The translations under genes and the position numbers were made by a program. Below, piece after piece: positions 5,259 through 16,269 of a stretch of DNA of 48,246 nucleotides. Location: NCBI GenBank assembly GCA_030038095.1, contig JASHPK010000014.1, positions 1 to 48,246 of the forward strand. The letters run 5' to 3'. A model generated the notes under the pieces. That model was given only the letters and a program-made list of their open reading frames with translations, had not been told where the DNA came from and did no database searches. Each line of letters opens with the position of its first letter. Position 1 is the first letter of the stretch. The stretch is from Thermoplasmata archaeon (GTDB taxonomy: Archaea > Thermoplasmatota > Thermoplasmata > Lutacidiplasmatales > UBA184).

Positions 5259-8200
5259 ATGTTGTCGCGCGCGGTGTGGCTGGCCCTGGCTCTGGCCGCA
5301 GTCATCGGGGTTTCGGCGGTGGTCGGGGGACTCCTGCCACCCCCTGGGACCGGCGCGCCCCTTCCGGGCGGACGGGCGGCCTCCACGCCTTCGGGCCCCG
5401 GGGGTACGACCTCCTTGGTCCAGCCCGATTCTTCCTCGACGGCCGCACCCGCGGGCGAGGAGGCTCTCCTCGCTCGGGCGACCGAGGCCGGCGCGAACCC
5501 CTACAACATCTTCCTTCCGCGCGCGCTCGCCGCACCGGCTGACTCCGGAGGGGGTTCCGCCCTCGCCCATGTCCGCCCCCCGTACAGCTCCAGCCCGGCC
5601 CCCATGGGGATCGCGGACTACGGACTCCGGAACGCCACGAACGGTAGCGTGGTTCCCTACCGACTGAACACGACCCGCCTCGTCGGCACGGTCGATGAGT
5701 GGGGTCCGGGGATCGTTCCGTTCTACCTCGACTCCGGTGCGCCGGACTCCTACGCGATCCAGCTCGATGCGGTGATCACCAACGTGACGCTCTTTGGCCA
5801 GCCCGGGTACCAGTTTTGGATCCAGGACGTTCTCGAGTACTCGGTCGGCCGGGACCAGCTCACCCTGATCTCGAACGTGTGGAACTTCTCGGCCCTCGGG
5901 GCCGTGGATTCCCCGAACCTTCTCGCGGCCCACGGACCGAACGGCCGCCTCGTCCCCTACGACGTCTACTACTCGAACCTCACGATCCCCAACGTCGAGG
6001 GACCCTTCGATGCCTCGCTCTTCCTCAACAGCAGCGTGAACGCGAGCCGGGACCAGGTGAACTTCTCGGCCGTCGTCTCGGGGCCGTCGGGGACAATCGC
6101 GGAGCCATTCGATTACGTCGTCTTCAACTCGACCGTCAACACCACGGCCCGCTTCTCGAACCCGGCGAGTTTCACCATCGACGGCTTCGAGACCAATCCG
6201 GCCGGGTACACGGACGACTTCGAGCTCGACGTCGGGGGACCGGGCGATGGGCTGCAGACGAACCTTTACCAGGCGGACGCGAACCTCTCGCTCGTCTTCT
6301 GGAACGCGACCGCGAAGGTCTACCGAAACGTCCCCTCCGCGGAGAGCTACGGCGGCGACTCCGGCGAGACCGCCTCGGGAGCGAGCCTCGCCTGGCTCGA
6401 GGAGGCCCACGGGCCGTTCGACGCCAACATCTACGCCGTCATGACGAGCGGCCCGGGCTTCCTTCACGGGCTCTGGAACGCCTCGACGCCGCGGGGCGCG
6501 ACCCCGGTCTCGTTCTCGCTCGATCCGTCCAACGCGTGGGTCTTCGTCCGGTCGAATGCCACCGTCCCGGAGTCGAACTTCTCGGTCGTGGAGAGCGAGT
6601 GGGCCCCGACCGAGCTGAACAACGGAAGCTTCGTGCTGGGTCCGGGGAACTACACCGTGGACGTGCTCGAAAGCGAGTACACGCCCGAGACCCTATTCCT
6701 CGACGTGGGCGGCTCGGCGCTCGCCGTGCCGGTCTCCCTCGACCCCAACGCCTCCGCCGGGATCTACGCGCCCCTCTATGCCTGGAACGACGCGCAGCTC
6801 GCCGCCCTCGCTTCGAGCGGGTCCGGCACGGCCGCGAGCCCCTACGTCCTCCCGAACGTTCAACCCGCCCCGTTCGCCCCGGAGTTCGGAACCCTGAACG
6901 ACTACACCTACCCGGTCTACGCCGGCGTCCTCTTCACGAACACGAACGCGACGGTCGAGCTCCTCGATCCCCCGGCGTTTGCGACCGAGACCCCGTTCCC
7001 GCCGCCCGACACCTGCCCGATCACGCTCGCCTGCCTCCCCGACACGAACGCGCTCCAGTACCAGCTCTACAACACCTCCCACGTCGCGATCGTGGACGCC
7101 ACGAACATCTCGGGGTGGTTCGCGACCGGGGTCGGGACGTTCTCGGCGCTCTACCCGACGCTCGCGCTCGACACGGTGGTCGTGTGGAACTCGACGCACG
7201 ATCTCATCGCGGGGAACCAGTTCGACCTCGCGGCCGCCGGCGGGATCTACCTCTACGGCGGGAGTGGGAACACGATCTGGGGGAACATCTTCCGCCAGGG
7301 AGCGCCGCCCGAAGCCGGGTCGGGCGCGCTCTGGCCGAGCTTCTACGGCGTCGCGGTCCAGGAGATGGAGTCCCACGACCTGATCTACAACGATCTCTTC
7401 GACAACTCGAAGGCCGGGACGACCGCCTGGACCCCGATTCTGAATCCGTACACGCAGACGTACAAGACCTGGACCGACACCTGGAACGTCTCGAGCGCGC
7501 CGGCGGACTCAGTGCGCTACGCGACCGGGTTCCCGACGATCCCGCTTTCGGGGAGCGTGGTCCGGACCTCGACGCAGGGCGGAAGCTACTGGTGGGACTA
7601 CGGCACCAACGCGAATCCTCTGCGCTCCCTCCCGTACAACGCGAGCGGCCACATCGTGGTCGCCGGAGACTACCACCCGCTCGTTCCGGAGCTCTCGGCG
7701 AACTTCACCGAGACGGGCCTTCCCACCGGCACGAACTGGTCGGTCACCCTCAACGGGATGACGGAGTCCTCGACCGGCCCGTCGATCGAGTTCAGCTACC
7801 AGGACGTGCTCGACACCGCGACCTTCGTCGTGGGCTCGGTCGCGGGGTACGTCGCGATCCCGAGCTCGGGGAACCTCACGCTCAACCTGACCTACACGAC
7901 CAACGTCACCGTGCGGTTCGCCCCGGACGTTGGAAATCTCTCGGGCACCGTCTCCCCGAGCGACGCCCTCCTCGCGGTCGACGGCACCTCCGTCTCCCTC
8001 GGTTCGAACGGGTCGTTCGACCTCGCCCTCGCGGCCGGGATCCACCCCATCGTCGCAACCGCGTCGGGGTACTATCCCTACTACGCGAACGTGTCGGTCG
8101 CATTCAACCGGACGACGGAGCTCGCGATCTCGTTGAATCCCATCCATCCGATCGGACCCAACGGGACCCTGGAACTCACGGTGACGCCCGGGAACGCCTC

Positions 8201-9038
8201 GATCTCCGTGAACGGCGTCTCGATCTCGCTGACCAGCGGGAGCTACTCCGCACCCGAGCCGCCCGGAGTCTACGCGATCGAAGGGACCGCCCCCGGCTAC
8301 TACGAGTACTTCAACAACGTGACGGTCGCGAGCAGCGCGACGACCACGCTCCAGATCCTCCTCAATCCGATCTCGCCGATCGGTCCGAACGGCACGATCG
8401 AGCTCTCGGTCTCGCCCGCTTCGGCCGCCGTCTCGGTCGACGGGAAGGCCGTCTCCCTCTCGTCGGGCCACGCGAGCCTGAGCGCGGCGATCGGGTTCCA
8501 CTCGATCGAGGCGACCGCGACCGGCTACTATCCGTACTTCAACAACGTCTCGGTGACGAGCGGCGGGACCACGACCGTCACCATCGCGCTGAACCCGGTG
8601 ACGCCGGTCCCCGGGCCGAATGGGAACCTCTCGGTCGCCATCGGCACGGTGGGGGCGACCCTCTGGATCGACGGATCGCCGGTGACCCTGACGAATGGGG
8701 CGTACTTCGGCACCGCCACGCCCGGGGTTCACTCGATCGAGATCCAGGCCAACGGGTACTTCCCGTACTACAACAACGTGACCGTGGTGAGCGGCCGGAC
8801 GACCTCGCTCGCCGTCACCCTCGACCCGTACGCGGCGCCGACGTCCAGCACGACGGGGATCGGGGAGACCGGCTGGGTGCTCATCGCGGGCCTCGCCGCG
8901 GTGGCGATGATCTTCTTCCTGACCACGATCCTCCTGGCCCGTCGACAAGCGGGGACTGCCCCCAACCCTCCCGCGTCGCCCCCTCCGCCTCCCCCAGCGG
9001 CCCCGCCGCCCGGCGAGCCTCCCGCCGGGTCCTCCTAG
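5259..9038 (+). CDS. Second thermopsin-family surface protein, paralogue
   Basis: 1,259 residues with the same architecture as the preceding gene: signal peptide; thermopsin domain (MGIADYGLRNATN, ITNVTLFGQPGYQFWIQDV, ISNVWNFS, LDVGGPGDG as landmarks, about residues 110-350); beta-rich middle; four PEGA-like repeats (about 892-1192); one membrane helix (about 1205-1227); and a Pro-rich cytoplasmic tail with runs of prolines. Asn-glycosylation sequons are abundant. The likely role is surface-bound acid protease or substrate-binding protein for peptide use. ATG 5259 has GGGAG five nt upstream and a weak AT-rich element about 33 nt upstream. The two paralogues differ clearly in sequence but not in layout, pointing to an old tandem duplication. 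The stop overlaps the stop of the convergent DUF302 gene at the palindrome CTAG. Confidence 0.88.
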   Translation: MLSRAVWLALALAAVIGVSAVVGGLLPPPGTGAPLPGGRAASTPSGPGGTTSLVQPDSSSTAAPAGEEALLARATEAGANPYNIFLPRALAAPADSGGGSALAHVRPPYSSSPAPMGIADYGLRNATNGSVVPYRLNTTRLVGTVDEWGPGIVPFYLDSGAPDSYAIQLDAVITNVTLFGQPGYQFWIQDVLEYSVGRDQLTLISNVWNFSALGAVDSPNLLAAHGPNGRLVPYDVYYSNLTIPNVEGPFDASLFLNSSVNASRDQVNFSAVVSGPSGTIAEPFDYVVFNSTVNTTARFSNPASFTIDGFETNPAGYTDDFELDVGGPGDGLQTNLYQADANLSLVFWNATAKVYRNVPSAESYGGDSGETASGASLAWLEEAHGPFDANIYAVMTSGPGFLHGLWNASTPRGATPVSFSLDPSNAWVFVRSNATVPESNFSVVESEWAPTELNNGSFVLGPGNYTVDVLESEYTPETLFLDVGGSALAVPVSLDPNASAGIYAPLYAWNDAQLAALASSGSGTAASPYVLPNVQPAPFAPEFGTLNDYTYPVYAGVLFTNTNATVELLDPPAFATETPFPPPDTCPITLACLPDTNALQYQLYNTSHVAIVDATNISGWFATGVGTFSALYPTLALDTVVVWNSTHDLIAGNQFDLAAAGGIYLYGGSGNTIWGNIFRQGAPPEAGSGALWPSFYGVAVQEMESHDLIYNDLFDNSKAGTTAWTPILNPYTQTYKTWTDTWNVSSAPADSVRYATGFPTIPLSGSVVRTSTQGGSYWWDYGTNANPLRSLPYNASGHIVVAGDYHPLVPELSANFTETGLPTGTNWSVTLNGMTESSTGPSIEFSYQDVLDTATFVVGSVAGYVAIPSSGNLTLNLTYTTNVTVRFAPDVGNLSGTVSPSDALLAVDGTSVSLGSNGSFDLALAAGIHPIVATASGYYPYYANVSVAFNRTTELAISLNPIHPIGPNGTLELTVTPGNASISVNGVSISLTSGSYSAPEPPGVYAIEGTAPGYYEYFNNVTVASSATTTLQILLNPISPIGPNGTIELSVSPASAAVSVDGKAVSLSSGHASLSAAIGFHSIEATATGYYPYFNNVSVTSGGTTTVTIALNPVTPVPGPNGNLSVAIGTVGATLWIDGSPVTLTNGAYFGTATPGVHSIEIQANGYFPYYNNVTVVSGRTTSLAVTLDPYAAPTSSTTGIGETGWVLIAGLAAVAMIFFLTTILLARRQAGTAPNPPASPPPPPPAAPPPGEPPAGSS
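7932..8833 (+). repeat. Four in-frame PEGA-like repeats in thermopsin 2
   Basis: Four units of about 75 codons, each ending in a NNVTV/NVSV-type strand and an LNP(I/V) linker, with PIGPNG joining the units. One more unit than in the upstream paralogue, so copy number has changed since duplication. Confidence 0.7.
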
Positions 9039-10981: not shown

Positions 10982-12691
10982 ATGACGATGGCCGCACCGG
11001 TCGTGGAAGTCCCGCGAAAGATCTCGCATCTGCCGAGCCTCCGGGGCATGGAGCTCCTCGAGTCCCCGCTCCTCAACAAGGGTACCGCGTTCACCGACGC
11101 GGAGCGGAACGCCCTCGGGCTGCACGGGCTCCTGCCCGTGCAGGTCGAGACGATCGAGGAGCAGGTCACGCGGGCGTACGAGGCGTACCGGAGGAAGACC
11201 GAGGACCTCGAGCGCCACATCTACCTGCGCGCGCTCCAGGACACCAACGAGGTACTGTTCTACCGGCTCGTCCTCTCGCACCTCGAGGAGATGATGCCGA
11301 TCGTCTACACGCCGGTGGTCGGGCAGGCGTGCCAGGAGTTCTGCCACATCTACCGCCGGCCCCGCGGACTGTTCATCCCGTACCCGCTGCGCGACGCCAT
11401 CCCGCGCCTCCTCCGCCACCGCCCGAACGAGGAGGTCGACGCGATCGTCGTGACCGACGGGGAGCGGATCCTCGGGATCGGGGATCAGGGGGCCGGGGGC
11501 CTCGGGATCCCGATCGGGAAGCTCTCGCTCTACACGCTGATCGGCGGGATCGCTCCGGAGCGCACCCTCCCGATCATCCTCGACGTCGGTACGAACAACC
11601 CGAAGCTGCTGAACGATCCGGAGTACCTCGGCTGGCACCACGAGCGGATCACCGGCACGGAGTACTACAACTTCGTCGAGCAGTTCGTTCGCGCGGTCGA
11701 GGCGGAGCTGCCGCACGTGCTGCTCCAGTGGGAGGACTTCGCGGTCGTGCACGCGCGCACGATCCTCGACGAGTACCGGGACCGCCTTCTCACGTTCAAC
11801 GACGACATCCAGGGGACCGCCGCCGTGACCCTCGGCGCGATCCTGAGCGCGCTGAACGTCTCGGGAAAGGGGATCGGCGCGCAGACCGTCGTGATCCTCG
11901 GGGCGGGCTCGGCGGGGGTCGGCGTCGCGGACTACCTCAAGGACGCGATGGTCCAGACCGGACTCACCGACGCCCAGGCCCGGGACCGGATCTACCTCGT
12001 CAACACGAAGGGAGTTCTCCACTCCCAGCGGACCGACCTGCGCCCGGAGCAACAGGTCTACGCCCAGCCGTGGGAGAAGGTCGCCGGCTGGGCCGACCCC
12101 ACCACGAAGACCGTCGGCCTCGCCGAGGTCCTCGACCACGTGCCGGCGACCGTGCTGATCGGCCTCTCGACCCTCGGGGGGGCGTTCTCCGAGCCGCTCG
12201 TCCGCGGGATGGCGCGAAAGGTCGAGCGCCCGATCATCTTCCCGCTCTCCAACCCGACCGTGAAGGCGGAGGCGGTGCCCCGCGACCTCCTCGAGTGGAC
12301 GGACGGGATGGCGATCATCGCGACCGGCTCGCCGTTCGCTCCGGTCCCGTTCCGGGGTCGGATGGTCCCGGTTGCGCAGTGCAATAACGTCTACATCTTC
12401 CCGGCGGTCGGTCTCGGTCTCGTCGCGAGCCGCGCCCGACGGGCGACCGACTCGATGCTGTTCGCGGCGGCCCGCGAGCTCGCCCGGCATTCCCCGGCGG
12501 CGCGGGACCCGGAGGAACCGCTCCTGCCCCGGCTCACGGAAGTGCGCAAGGTCGCGGTCGAGATCGCGGTCGCGGTCGGTCAAGAGGCGCAGAACCTGCG
12601 GCTCGCGCCGCGCACCACCCTGGAGGAGCTGCGGCACCGCGTGGTCGCGACGCAGTGGTCTCCGTCGTACCCGGAGTACCAGGTCCGCTGA
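10982..12691 (+). CDS. maeA: NAD(P)-dependent malic enzyme, large type
   Basis: 569 residues, the size of bacterial and eukaryotic large malic enzymes. It oxidatively decarboxylates malate to pyruvate and CO2. Visible motifs: YTPVVGQACQEFCHIYRRPR (with the catalytic Tyr), GIPIGKLSLYT (catalytic Lys), QWEDF and NDDIQGTAAVTLG (metal-binding acidic residues), dinucleotide loop GAGSAGVGVADYL, and PLSNPTVKAE. Start ATG 10982 follows GGGAGAA at suitable spacing. It converges with the half-PPDK gene, so two enzymes of the PEP-pyruvate-malate node are neighbours. Cofactor preference cannot be told safely from sequence alone. Archaeal malic enzymes are more often of the shorter type, so transfer from bacteria is plausible. 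Confidence 0.93.
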   Translation: MTMAAPVVEVPRKISHLPSLRGMELLESPLLNKGTAFTDAERNALGLHGLLPVQVETIEEQVTRAYEAYRRKTEDLERHIYLRALQDTNEVLFYRLVLSHLEEMMPIVYTPVVGQACQEFCHIYRRPRGLFIPYPLRDAIPRLLRHRPNEEVDAIVVTDGERILGIGDQGAGGLGIPIGKLSLYTLIGGIAPERTLPIILDVGTNNPKLLNDPEYLGWHHERITGTEYYNFVEQFVRAVEAELPHVLLQWEDFAVVHARTILDEYRDRLLTFNDDIQGTAAVTLGAILSALNVSGKGIGAQTVVILGAGSAGVGVADYLKDAMVQTGLTDAQARDRIYLVNTKGVLHSQRTDLRPEQQVYAQPWEKVAGWADPTTKTVGLAEVLDHVPATVLIGLSTLGGAFSEPLVRGMARKVERPIIFPLSNPTVKAEAVPRDLLEWTDGMAIIATGSPFAPVPFRGRMVPVAQCNNVYIFPAVGLGLVASRARRATDSMLFAAARELARHSPAARDPEEPLLPRLTEVRKVAVEIAVAVGQEAQNLRLAPRTTLEELRHRVVATQWSPSYPEYQVR

Positions 12692-12722: not shown

Positions 12723-14315
12723 TCAGGCGGGGAGCGCCGTCCGGAGCCGGCGAACGTCCTCGATCAGCTCGGTCGGGGGCCGCCGGACGAAGTGGACCGT
12801 GCCGGCGTAGATCCGTCCCGTAGCCCCGTCCACCGTCACCGGGTCGCCCTCGAGGTACTCGCGACCCGAGGCTCGGAACCGCCGCCCGTCCTCGTCGATC
12901 TCGAGGCCGGGGCAGTGGACGACCACGACCTTGCCCATCTGCCGCGCGATCACGATCGCGTGGGAGGTGCGCGAACCGCGGGGCACGATGGCCCCGACGG
13001 CGACCTGGAGCGCCGGAAGGTCGTCGGCGACGAGGTCGTTCCGCACGAGGATCACCGGGCTCCGCGGGGCCATCTCGAGCGCCTTGGGGGTGGAGAAGGC
13101 CAGCGTCCCGCTCGCGACGCCGATCGAGGCCGCCTCGCCCTCCGCGATCGGGCTCGCGGCCTCCGCCACTTCCGAGATCGAGATCGAATCGAGGTCGATC
13201 CGCTCGAGCCGTCGGGCGGCCTCGGCCCGGTCGATCCATCCGGCGTGCACGAGGTCGAGCGCGATGCGCAGGGCCGCGAGGGGCTCCCGGGCGCCCGCCC
13301 GGGTCTGGAGGAGGTAGAGCCGGCGGTCCTCGATCGTGAACTCGACGTCCTGCATGTCCCGGAAGGCGCGCTCGAGCCGGAGCCCCCCATCGAGGAGCTC
13401 GCGGTGGACCTCGGGGAAGAGGCTCGCGAGGTCGTTCGTCCGGGAGGTGCGGCTCTGCGAGACGACGTCCTCGCCCTGGACCCCCCGCTTGAAGTCGATG
13501 ACCGGACGGTCCTCCCCGGTCCACGGGTTCCGGGTGAACATCACCCCGGCCCCCGAGCCCGGACCGAGGTTCCCGTAGACCATCGCCTGGACGGTCACGG
13601 CCGTGCCTCCGGTGTCATCGAGGCCGTTGGTGAGCCGGAACGCCCGGGCGCGAGGGCTCATCCACGACTCGAGCACGGCGCGCGCGGCGGCCGAAAGCTG
13701 GCCCCGCGCCTCCGAAGGGAACGCGAGCCCCGTGTGCTGCCGAAGGAGCCGTTCGTACTTCTCGGAGAGCTCGCGGAGCGCCCGGAAATCGAGCTCGCCC
13801 TGATCGAGGGCGCCCTCCGACGTCATCTCCGCGCGCACTGCTCCCGAGAACAGCCCGGCCTCGAGGCCCACGACCTCGGCGAAGTTCTCGAGCAGCCGGC
13901 GGTACGAGTCCCACGCGAACCGGGGGTTCCCCCGGCGCAGGATGAGCCCCGAGACCGTCTCCCGGTTCAACCCCACGTTGAGCACGGTGGTCATCATGCC
14001 GGGCATGGACACGGCGGACCCGCTCCGGACGGAGACGAGGAGCGGATTGCGCCGGCCCCCGAACTCTAGGCCGGTGGTCTTCTCCAGGAAGTCGATCCCC
14101 TCCTCGAGGAGACCCGGCAGGTCGTCGGGGAGATGGCGGCCGCGGCGATAGTACTCCCGGCAGACGTCGACGCTGAGGGCGAAGCCGGGCGGCACCGGGA
14201 GTTCGAGGCCCGCCATGCGGGCGAGATTCGCCGCCTTGTTGCCGAACCGGGTCGCCGGGACCTCCGCGCCGAGGCCCCGACGGAAGAGGAGGATCCGCTC
14301 CGGGTCACTCGCCAC
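12723..14315 (-). CDS. Half-length pyruvate phosphate dikinase-like protein (ATP-grasp plus phosphohistidine domain)
   Basis: 530 residues from GTG 14315. Residues 1-350 match the PPDK nucleotide-binding half: FGNKAANLARMAGLELPVPP, SVRSGSAVSMPGMMTTVLN, RFAWDSYRRLLENFAEVVG, VMFTRNPWTGED, EFTIEDRRLYLLQTRAG. Residues about 390-510 form the swivelling domain with the phosphohistidine site RTSHAIVIARQMG. The sequence then stops: the roughly 350-residue PEP/pyruvate TIM barrel of full PPDK (about 880 residues) is absent, and no such barrel is encoded in the window. It should transfer phosphate from ATP to its own His, but the final acceptor is unknown. Phenylphosphate synthase and rifampicin phosphotransferase are known relatives with other acceptors. 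Its start overlaps the 3' end of the PhoU-like gene by 11 nt, implying coupled translation and joint function. Confidence 0.85.
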   Translation of the reverse strand: MASDPERILLFRRGLGAEVPATRFGNKAANLARMAGLELPVPPGFALSVDVCREYYRRGRHLPDDLPGLLEEGIDFLEKTTGLEFGGRRNPLLVSVRSGSAVSMPGMMTTVLNVGLNRETVSGLILRRGNPRFAWDSYRRLLENFAEVVGLEAGLFSGAVRAEMTSEGALDQGELDFRALRELSEKYERLLRQHTGLAFPSEARGQLSAAARAVLESWMSPRARAFRLTNGLDDTGGTAVTVQAMVYGNLGPGSGAGVMFTRNPWTGEDRPVIDFKRGVQGEDVVSQSRTSRTNDLASLFPEVHRELLDGGLRLERAFRDMQDVEFTIEDRRLYLLQTRAGAREPLAALRIALDLVHAGWIDRAEAARRLERIDLDSISISEVAEAASPIAEGEAASIGVASGTLAFSTPKALEMAPRSPVILVRNDLVADDLPALQVAVGAIVPRGSRTSHAIVIARQMGKVVVVHCPGLEIDEDGRRFRASGREYLEGDPVTVDGATGRIYAGTVHFVRRPPTELIEDVRRLRTALPA

Positions 14316-16269
14316 CGGTCCGGAACGCCCCCTGGTTGAGCCGCCCGAAGATGTCGTCCTTCACGGTGAAGGCGGCCCGCTTGAGGTAGTTGGTCGACGA
14401 CTCGATGAACCCCGCGATCTCGAGCGCGAGCGCGGTCTCCTTGAAGTCGGAGCTCTCGTTCCAGATCCCCTCTCGCGCCCCCCGGAGGGCCGCATCGGCG
14501 GCCTCCTCGAGCGTGAAGACCCGATCCACGGAGGCAAGGAATCCCTCCATCTCCTCCTCGCGCGACGCCGGCCCGAGCAAGCCGATCGCCTGGACGGATT
14601 TCAGGAACTCTTCGGCCGACTCCCGGGCGAGCTGGGCGAGCCCCGACAACGTCGCGAGGATCTTCTTGGAACGCACGTGCTCCGCGCCGAGCGTGAGGGA
14701 GAACGCCGCGTCCTCTAGGGCGTCGACGGCGTCGTCCGTGACGCCGACCAGCGCGTGGAACAGGGACGGGGTTCCGCCTCGACGGGTGAGGGAGCGGACG
14801 CTCGCCACGATCTCGTCCGAGGCCTTCTCCCACCGCTTCGCCCGCACCGCGTTGCGGTTCGCGACCTCCGGCCCTTGACCCTCGAGGAGGCCCGAGAGCG
14901 TCTCCTCGACCGACGTCGCAACCTCCACGAGGAACGACGCCTGCTCGGCACACCGGGTGAGCAGGTCCTCGTCGAGCGTGCGGAAGTACCGGAGCAGCTC
15001 CGCCTTGACCTCGTCCCGGAGGAGGATCCGCGACTGGTTCGCGAGGAGCCCGGTGGTCGCGGTGCGCAGGACCCACTCGAAGTACTGCCGCGTCTTCATG
15101 GCGCCGAGGACCGCGCTCAGCCGTTCCCGGTAGTGCACCTGCCCCTTCGGCGCCATGTCGATCGCCTCCGTGATGAGGCCGGCTCCGCCGAGGAGCAGGA
15201 ACGCCCGATGCCCCACCTCTTCGTGGGCCGCCCATCCGAGCACGTCGATCGCCTCGCCGTTCCGCATGAAGGCCCGCAGCTCCTTGCGGGCCCGGTTCCA
15301 GTCGATCAGGAAGACGAGGCGCGACCCGAGGTTCTCGAGCGACTTCTCGAGGTTGGCGCGGTCGAGCGGCTCGCTCCGTCCGATCGTGAGGAAGAACTCC
15401 TCGGCGGCCAGGGCGTCCGACCCCTCATGGGACGCGGTATCCTGCCAGGTCAGGGCGAGATCGGTGAGCAGGGTCTGGAAGAACGCCACGCGCTCGGGGT
15501 GGACATCGGAGTACGTGACCGACAGCGCCGAGTCCTCGACCCGGACGACGAGCACGTGGGCATCCGACTCCCCGATATCGTTCTGGAGGAGGAGGCGGTC
15601 GCCGATCCGCGTCGCGGTCGTGCCGAGGCCGGGATGCTCGAACTTGAGCGGGGCCGTGCGGTTGACCCCGGCCATGAAGGCTCGGACGAGATCGGCGTCC
15701 TCCGGGGCCAGGGAGTAGGTCGTCGCGCCGGCGATCGTTTCGGTCCGCATCTCCGCTTGGACGCGGAGGAGCCCCTGGTGAAGGTCCATCACGAGCCGGT
15801 GGACGCTGTCCGACCCGTCCCGCCCCACCGAGGTCATCGCGTCGATCATCGATCCCAGGATCACGTCGCTCTCGGTGGTCGAGAGCTCCTTACGGAACCG
15901 CGCGAGCCGGTCCGAGAATCCCTTTGCCTCGGGCCATCGGGCGTCGTCGAAGGGACGGATCATCGTCTCGACCGCGGAAAGCACCCGCGCCACGATGTCG
16001 GCGCTGGAGGGCACGGAGTACCGGCCCTCGGCGACCTTGCGAGATCCCGGAACCACGGCGTCGAGGGAGGCCTCCGTCTCGCCGGATTCGCGGCGCTCCT
16101 CCGCGAGGTTGGAAACGGTCGCCTCGGGTCGCTCGGCCTTCACCCGGGCGTTCTGGAGCAGCGCGAGGAGGTACTTCGCACGATCGTTGGCCCGCAGGGC
16201 CTCGTTGACCTCCAGCGGCAGGAGGAGCGTCGTCTCCCCGAGCTCGCGCACGATCGTGGCCTTCTGCAT
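14305..16269 (-). CDS. Large helical protein with PhoU/DUF47-like C-terminus, partner of half-PPDK
   Basis: 654 residues from ATG 16269, soluble, no signal peptide. Residues 1-200 are helical and charged; about 200-265 form a beta-rich segment (GTTATRIGDRLLLQNDIGES then DAHVLVVRVED); about 270-460 are again helical; about 470-640 resemble a PhoU/DUF47 helical bundle (RAKRWEKASDEIVASVRSL, FHALVGVTDDAVDALEDAA). DUF47 and PhoU domains are metal-associated helical bundles that often regulate phosphate transport. Overlap with the half-PPDK start by 11 nt shows an operon. I infer a regulator, or the phosphoryl-acceptor subunit, of that enzyme; neither is proven. A TATA-like GGCTAAACC 30 nt before the ATG suggests a leaderless transcript. 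Confidence 0.7.
   Translation of the reverse strand: MQKATIVRELGETTLLLPLEVNEALRANDRAKYLLALLQNARVKAERPEATVSNLAEERRESGETEASLDAVVPGSRKVAEGRYSVPSSADIVARVLSAVETMIRPFDDARWPEAKGFSDRLARFRKELSTTESDVILGSMIDAMTSVGRDGSDSVHRLVMDLHQGLLRVQAEMRTETIAGATTYSLAPEDADLVRAFMAGVNRTAPLKFEHPGLGTTATRIGDRLLLQNDIGESDAHVLVVRVEDSALSVTYSDVHPERVAFFQTLLTDLALTWQDTASHEGSDALAAEEFFLTIGRSEPLDRANLEKSLENLGSRLVFLIDWNRARKELRAFMRNGEAIDVLGWAAHEEVGHRAFLLLGGAGLITEAIDMAPKGQVHYRERLSAVLGAMKTRQYFEWVLRTATTGLLANQSRILLRDEVKAELLRYFRTLDEDLLTRCAEQASFLVEVATSVEETLSGLLEGQGPEVANRNAVRAKRWEKASDEIVASVRSLTRRGGTPSLFHALVGVTDDAVDALEDAAFSLTLGAEHVRSKKILATLSGLAQLARESAEEFLKSVQAIGLLGPASREEEMEGFLASVDRVFTLEEAADAALRGAREGIWNESSDFKETALALEIAGFIESSTNYLKRAAFTVKDDIFGRLNQGAFRTGGE

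Follow-up and report, generated by a model that had tools for sequence, protein, structure and literature searches.

Two overlapping genes in a 48,246-nucleotide (nt) stretch of DNA from a Thermoplasmata archaeon (assembly GCA_030038095.1, contig JASHPK010000014.1; hereafter the window, meaning the whole stretch) were found to belong to a near-obligate two-gene pair that spans Archaea and Bacteria. One gene encodes a half-length pyruvate phosphate dikinase (PPDK) that ends after its phosphohistidine domain, and the other a partner protein with a PhoU-like C-terminus. PPDK-type engines have already been rewired to new acceptors, the known outcomes including aromatic alcohols, rifampin, and a regulatory kinase. 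We lean toward the view, which we rate slightly better than even, that the present pair is a two-component dikinase-type phosphotransferase.

An earlier inspection of the letters alone (the sequence-only reading) had delimited two overlapping open reading frames here, and both were recovered at exactly the same coordinates. The 11-nt overlap it described was likewise read directly (...ggtggcgagTGAccc), with the GTG start of the half-PPDK gene falling within the last codons of the partner gene. The features of the pair are as follows.

12723..14315 (-), half-length PPDK gene, 530 amino acids, GTG start (open reading frame at these coordinates)
14305..16269 (-), partner gene, 654 amino acids, ATG start (open reading frame at these coordinates)
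14305..14315 (-), 11-nt overlap of the two genes (overlap sequence read)
13281..14315 (-), ATP-grasp part of the half-PPDK, about residues 1-345 (columns common to pair-type and full-length PPDKs)
12786..13133 (-), phosphohistidine swivel domain, about residues 395-510 (PF00391; alignment to 2fm4)
12960..12962 (-), codon of the predicted catalytic histidine H452, in GSRTSHAIVIAR (conservation in the alignment)
14305..16269 (-), partner protein, with an unrecognized N-terminal domain and a C-terminal PhoU/DUF47 bundle (Pfam, NCBIfam, and PDB searches; AlphaFold2 model)
14980..16269 (-), N-terminal domain of the partner, about residues 1-430, candidate acceptor or catalytic domain (invariant residues)
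14305..14979 (-), C-terminal PhoU/DUF47 bundle of the partner (Foldseek match to 3l39; conserved motifs)

The partner was searched for in a collection of 84,980 species genomes, where a single-sequence query returned zero relatives and a two-row alignment was needed to recover 306, of which 80 were kept for analysis. A half-PPDK gene directly follows the partner gene in 77 of the 78 evaluable loci. Three loci lack an adjacent half-PPDK: two stop at a contig end, and one (L100, 5992-7953), from a Rhodospirillales draft metagenome-assembled genome in which the only PPDK matches elsewhere are one full-length protein and a weak fragment, is a genuine exception. The two genes overlap in 32 of 78 pairs and are spaced by 30 nt or less in 65, with one of these 78 being a duplicate locus. 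Adjacency was also seen in all 12 regions cut from sampled genomes (12/12), at least three of which duplicate loci of the first set. Carriers include Methanomicrobia, Methanosarcina, Nitrososphaeria, Alpha-, Beta-, and Gammaproteobacteria, Acidobacteria, Planctomycetes, and Gemmatimonadetes, and one betaproteobacterium (G394) holds a second complete pair (L196). Cultivable carriers include Methylocella tundrae (WP_322847396 and WP_322847397) and Rhodopila globiformis. Copies also occur on plasmids, where RefSeq labels the two proteins "DUF47 family protein" or "phosphate transport regulator" and "PEP/pyruvate-binding domain-containing protein." The distribution is patchy, the partner occurring in 2/390, 9/197, 3/299, and 1/99 genomes of four phylum samples. 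Within the 390 Thermoplasmatota genomes, it was found only in the genome of the window and in one genome of another class, and the other strong PPDK matches were mostly full-length proteins of ~860-960 amino acids. The sequence-only reading had counted pairing across distant genomes in favor of a module and loss of the neighborhood in relatives against it; the two genes remain neighbors, and this pairing, together with the single half-PPDK clade described below, supports a conserved two-gene module for which we infer a role in phosphotransfer.

Judging from profile and structure comparisons, the 530-residue protein is a PPDK that ends after its phosphohistidine domain, much as the sequence-only reading had proposed; its catalytic histidine and every residue of the ATP site are intact. 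Pfam searches matched PF01326 (PPDK_N, 135.7 bits) and PF00391 (the mobile, phosphohistidine domain; 61.4 bits at residues 419-500) and gave no match to PF02896, the phosphoenolpyruvate (PEP)/pyruvate barrel. The protein scored 485 bits against TIGR01828, covering model positions 17-508 of 865 and not reaching the cut-off of 843, and 409.9 bits against NF004531, the profile applied for VadK-type half-PPDK kinases, under the cut-off of 456. Its N-terminal ~510 residues are homologous to PPDK, with ~40-44% identity to full-length archaeal PPDKs; the closest solved structures are those of PPDK (1kbl/9pzl, E 2.4e-109), and the swivel domain aligns to 2fm4, a nuclear magnetic resonance structure of the PPDK phosphoryl-carrier domain (E 3.4e-18). 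Most of its complete relatives measure 525-561 amino acids. K27, R97, D320, E325, Q337, R339, T450, and H452 are kept in both pair-type and full-length PPDKs, and we take them to be the ATP/phosphate site and catalytic histidine region of PPDK, the ATP-site residues having been equated with those of C. symbiosum from the PDB alignment and prior knowledge. Of the 69 pair-type sequences, at least 97% carry H452, which is also found in full-length PPDKs and presumably corresponds to His422 of VadK, a half-PPDK of M. tuberculosis.

The match of TIGR01828 to the N-half (positions 17-508) and the malic enzyme gene adjoining the pair could suggest ordinary PPDK activity, with the barrel supplied in trans and a tie to that neighbor. 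This was largely refuted. No stand-alone barrel was found in the genome of the window (67 contigs, ~92% complete), in which the one further gene of the PPDK superfamily is an intact PEP synthase of 789 amino acids that contains the sole PF02896 domain; a separate barrel gene completing a split PPDK, the finding that the sequence-only reading had named as fatal to its module, is thus not to be seen there. A full-length PPDK is also encoded in 10 of 14 other partner-bearing genomes checked, so the metabolic PPDK must be a protein other than the half-PPDK. The malic enzyme gene (10982-12691, +) lies on the opposite strand and converges with the pair, and is therefore outside its operon; moreover, the comparison of neighbors across loci showed no malic enzyme near any other pair. 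The link to the PEP-pyruvate node drawn from this neighbor was consequently rejected, and we consider a split PPDK of this kind hardly credible. The partner might instead be devoted to regulating the PEP/pyruvate enzymes of the cell, much as PDRP/PSRP do, with the half-PPDK as a non-catalytic decoy or adaptor. Such a role would suit the tight coupling to a PPDK fragment, but every catalytic residue is kept in the half-PPDK and Pfam searches with the partner gave no match to DUF299 (PDRP), making this very unlikely.

When 52 PPDK N-halves were placed in a tree, a branch with support 100 separated the pair-type proteins, as one clade, from full-length PPDKs and from the short forms found in Rhodococcus, Streptomyces, and Skermanella; VadK itself was absent from this tree, and support is weak for where the window sequence falls within the archaeal pairs. 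Since the half-PPDKs of the pair form one clade, a single loss of the barrel in their lineage is the simplest account. Divergence in one protein is matched by divergence in the other (mirror-tree r = 0.91, 65 pairs, 0/999 permutations as high), and this match suggests that the two genes have traveled together, including between domains of life. The excluded short PPDKs (548-579 amino acids, no barrel) are encoded on plasmids in unrelated contexts, next to P450/ferredoxin genes, biotin carboxylase, or pyruvate kinase (L120, 3833-5545; L122, 3950-5596; L127, 3929-5668; L128, 2947-4653). An unusual place for a PPDK was also noted on plasmid RPME01 of Methylibium petroleiphilum, where a protein of ~845 amino acids is encoded inside a bacterial microcompartment locus with EutM, EutN, and BMC-domain genes (L121, 3908-6442).

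The partner appears from these database searches to found a new family. PF01865 (PhoU_div/DUF47) matched only residues 440-636 and, at 20.6 bits, remained under the gathering score of 24.4; among relatives, 45 of 58 matched it at E <= 0.1, with a best E of 2.4e-12. An AlphaFold2 model of the partner (mean predicted local distance difference test [pLDDT] 91.9, predicted template modeling score [pTM] 0.78) places a PhoU-type fold at residues ~430-654, which resembles 3l39 with a template modeling (TM) score of 0.84, normalized to the target, and 2olt with scores of 0.78-0.82 in Foldseek. The bundle carries three (E/D)xxxD motifs (E481-D485, D512-D516, and E588-D592), each position being kept in 72-74 of 74 relatives, and this motif is a known PhoU signature (PMC5686610). 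The PhoU/DUF47-like C-terminus that the sequence-only reading had recognized is thus upheld, while its description of a helical protein holds for this bundle but not for residues ~176-300, which are mixed alpha/beta in the model.

The N-terminal ~430 residues of the partner matched no Pfam or NCBIfam family and no convincing solved fold in profile and PDB fold searches, and the weak resemblance to YbjN (probability 0.66) is insufficient to claim kinship. Thirteen positions of this domain (H157, H164, H212, H238, H257, N230, D231, D255, R260, D323, W324, N325, and R328) are invariant in 74 of 74 relatives, whose mean pairwise identity is 46%. Such residues would resemble a catalytic or metal-binding site rather than a mere scaffold.

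No third gene is fixed beside the pair, and long-range clustering of flanking genes yielded mostly lineage-specific neighbors. Polyphosphate genes nevertheless recur near it in 7 of 29 archaeal loci (L040, L042, L044, L045, L046, L057, and L071), where PPK1, CHAD, CYTH-CHAD, and Ppx genes occur in differing arrangements. Two of these loci encode unusual fusions, namely, CYTH, Ppx-domain III, and CHAD in Methanosarcina (L045, 6847-9420) and CHAD with a calcineurin-like phosphoesterase in Methanoculleus (L046, 11693-13648). PPK1 also lies within about 8 kilobases of the pair in three further genomes (G452, G489, and G591), one of which (G489) shows the order PPK1-Ppx-partner-half-PPDK on one strand. 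Within one phylum, 8 of 9 genomes with the pair encode PPK1, versus 51 of 188 others (Fisher p = 3e-4, uncorrected for kinship), and finding 3 of 8 PPK1 genes this close has a binomial probability of ~6e-5, assuming ~1% per genome and again with kinship uncorrected. PPK2 is found near the pair in two bacterial loci (L111 and L112). We treat this polyphosphate link as a lead, short of a conclusion.

Genes for P-type cation-transport ATPases lie near the pair in nine loci (L064, L079, L084, L099, L103, L104, L108, L111, and L113), eight of them bacterial, mostly from Alphaproteobacteria, and one on a Nitrososphaeraceae contig; the gene is immediately downstream in L099, L103, L104, and L108. With such variable neighbors, the patchy distribution over both domains of life, and the plasmid copies, the pair could be viewed as a stress or defense accessory moving between genomes, in which the PPDK half would feed phosphoryl groups to nucleotide or protein modification during stress. 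However, no mobile or defense gene is recurrent beside the pair, and the matched divergence of the two proteins and the recurring polyphosphate neighbors better suit slow metabolic evolution. An anti-phage system was rejected, as neither protein matches any PADLOC model, and the broader accessory reading seems improbable to us.

In the two-component phosphotransferase that we favor, the half-PPDK would be the engine: its ATP-grasp domain would phosphorylate H452 of the swivel domain, probably with release of AMP, and also of pyrophosphate (PPi) if inorganic phosphate (Pi) is a co-substrate as in PPDK, and the swivel domain would then carry the phosphoryl group. The N-terminal ~430-residue domain of the partner would take over the acceptor role of the lost barrel, its invariant His, Asp, Arg, and Asn residues forming the acceptor site, possibly with a metal, and the PhoU/DUF47 bundle may serve as a sensor or binding site for phosphate or metal, or as a tether. 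Candidate acceptors are phosphate-containing species (Pi, PPi, or polyphosphate), made the best lead by the polyphosphate genes that surround the pair in methanogen-type archaea. A pseudo-complex was modeled from a relative (L039) in which both genes are in frame, by reading through the stop to give a fusion of 1193 amino acids (pLDDT 91.2, pTM 0.69); in this model, 530 columns of the PPDK half could be superposed on 1kbl at 2.4 A. The model is compatible with a preferred arrangement of the two proteins and, set against the confident interface to which the sequence-only reading looked, is suggestive but not decisive.

Several points weigh against the favored reading and its polyphosphate extension. 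The chemistry of the pair is drawn from computation, and the interface is suggested by a read-through fusion model (pTM 0.69). The invariant N-terminal residues could have a structural or regulatory role instead of serving acceptor chemistry. Only 3 of 51 bacterial loci have polyphosphate genes nearby, and the polyphosphate statistics ignore the kinship of the genomes. Finally, a search of the ~92%-complete assembly found no PPK1, PPK2, or CHAD protein in the genome of the window; polyphosphate therefore cannot explain the pair in general, unless none of these proteins is needed for its action. A more specific proposal, a new class of polyphosphate/pyrophosphate enzyme in which the PPDK half exchanges ATP with AMP and PPi through H452 and the partner moves the phosphoryl group to or from polyphosphate or phosphate, making polyphosphate from ATP or ATP from AMP and polyphosphate, strikes us as rather unlikely.

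The main rival is a regulatory histidine kinase resembling VadK, which would pass phosphate to an invariant histidine of the partner or to other enzymes, the partner being a regulator of phosphate metabolism rather than an enzyme. VadK, likewise a PPDK cut after its histidine domain, is an autophosphorylating protein that regulates the methylcitrate cycle (PMC13400623), and PhoU proteins, which the partner resembles at its C-terminus, act as regulators; the polyphosphate genes near some archaeal pairs would fit as well. On the other hand, the pair-type half-PPDKs stand apart from the sampled short actinobacterial PPDKs (a comparison outside which VadK itself falls), no methylcitrate genes are recurrent among the neighbors examined, and the partner has an additional domain that is large and highly conserved and whose invariant residues are like those of an enzyme. 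We hold this kinase possible but doubtful, and keep the two-component phosphotransferase as the preferred reading.

Two other genes of the window were noted. A haem-oxygenase-like iron-containing redox enzyme (PF14518; 16447-17274, -) is encoded ~180 nt upstream of the pair on the same strand, and the comparison of neighbors across loci showed none near other pairs. Farther away, a secreted-looking protein of 1259 amino acids (5259-9038, +) has several similar repeats of ~85 residues near its C-terminal end, followed by a transmembrane segment and a proline-rich tail, and is likely a cell-surface protein.

Within the library searched, literature on DUF47 proteins and dikinases, on PPDK in connection with PhoU and polyphosphate, and on the polyphosphate operons of methanogens in connection with PPDK gave no description of the pair. 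It would represent a further rewiring of PPDK, widespread in both domains of life and also in cultivable bacteria, with a partner family that is unnamed and an engine whose label in public records says no more than PEP/pyruvate binding. Its association with polyphosphate genes in methanogens makes a specific and cheap assay feasible, and phosphate storage and energy metabolism could gain an enzyme from it; the polyphosphate reading, if true, would provide a third route beside PPK1 and PPK2, in archaea and bacteria.

Comparison with known systems places the pair as a further variant of the PPDK-derived dikinase theme. It departs from PPDK itself (TIGR01828) in the absent barrel and in a score of 485 bits against 843. 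VadK (Rv1127c) is likewise cut after the histidine domain with its active-site residues kept, and its in vitro autophosphorylation on histidine offers a precedent (PMC13400623); however, no such partner has been described for it, and the pair-type half-PPDKs form their own clade apart from the sampled short PPDKs. Rifampin phosphotransferase (RPH; PMC4844700) shares the dikinase chemistry, the swivel histidine, and an exchanged acceptor domain, but is a single chain, and the PPDK half of the window is much closer to PPDK than to RPH. The C-terminal bundle resembles DUF47/PhoU_div regulators (PF01865; BT4638, 3l39) in fold (TM 0.84) and in its (E/D)xxxD motifs, yet follows a ~430-residue domain missing from stand-alone DUF47 proteins. 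Also close are HpeHI, CreHI, and PpsAB, two-component small-molecule dikinases (PMC12167813) that likewise use two polypeptides, ATP-grasp and phosphohistidine swivel chemistry, and a non-barrel acceptor domain. HpeHI, in which an engine of this kind works with a different acceptor domain, is a second precedent for the proposed mechanism, and the near-obligate pairing of the two proteins studied here is consistent with such an arrangement. In those systems, the ATP-grasp stands alone with a PEP-synthase-like motif and the swivel goes with the acceptor domain, whereas the window pair joins a PPDK-type ATP-grasp and the swivel in one protein and fuses an unrelated domain to PhoU in the other; the partner contains no RIF-binding/HpeH substrate domain by Pfam search, nor does its model match RPH. 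The pair is distinct in arrangement from both VadK and HpeHI.

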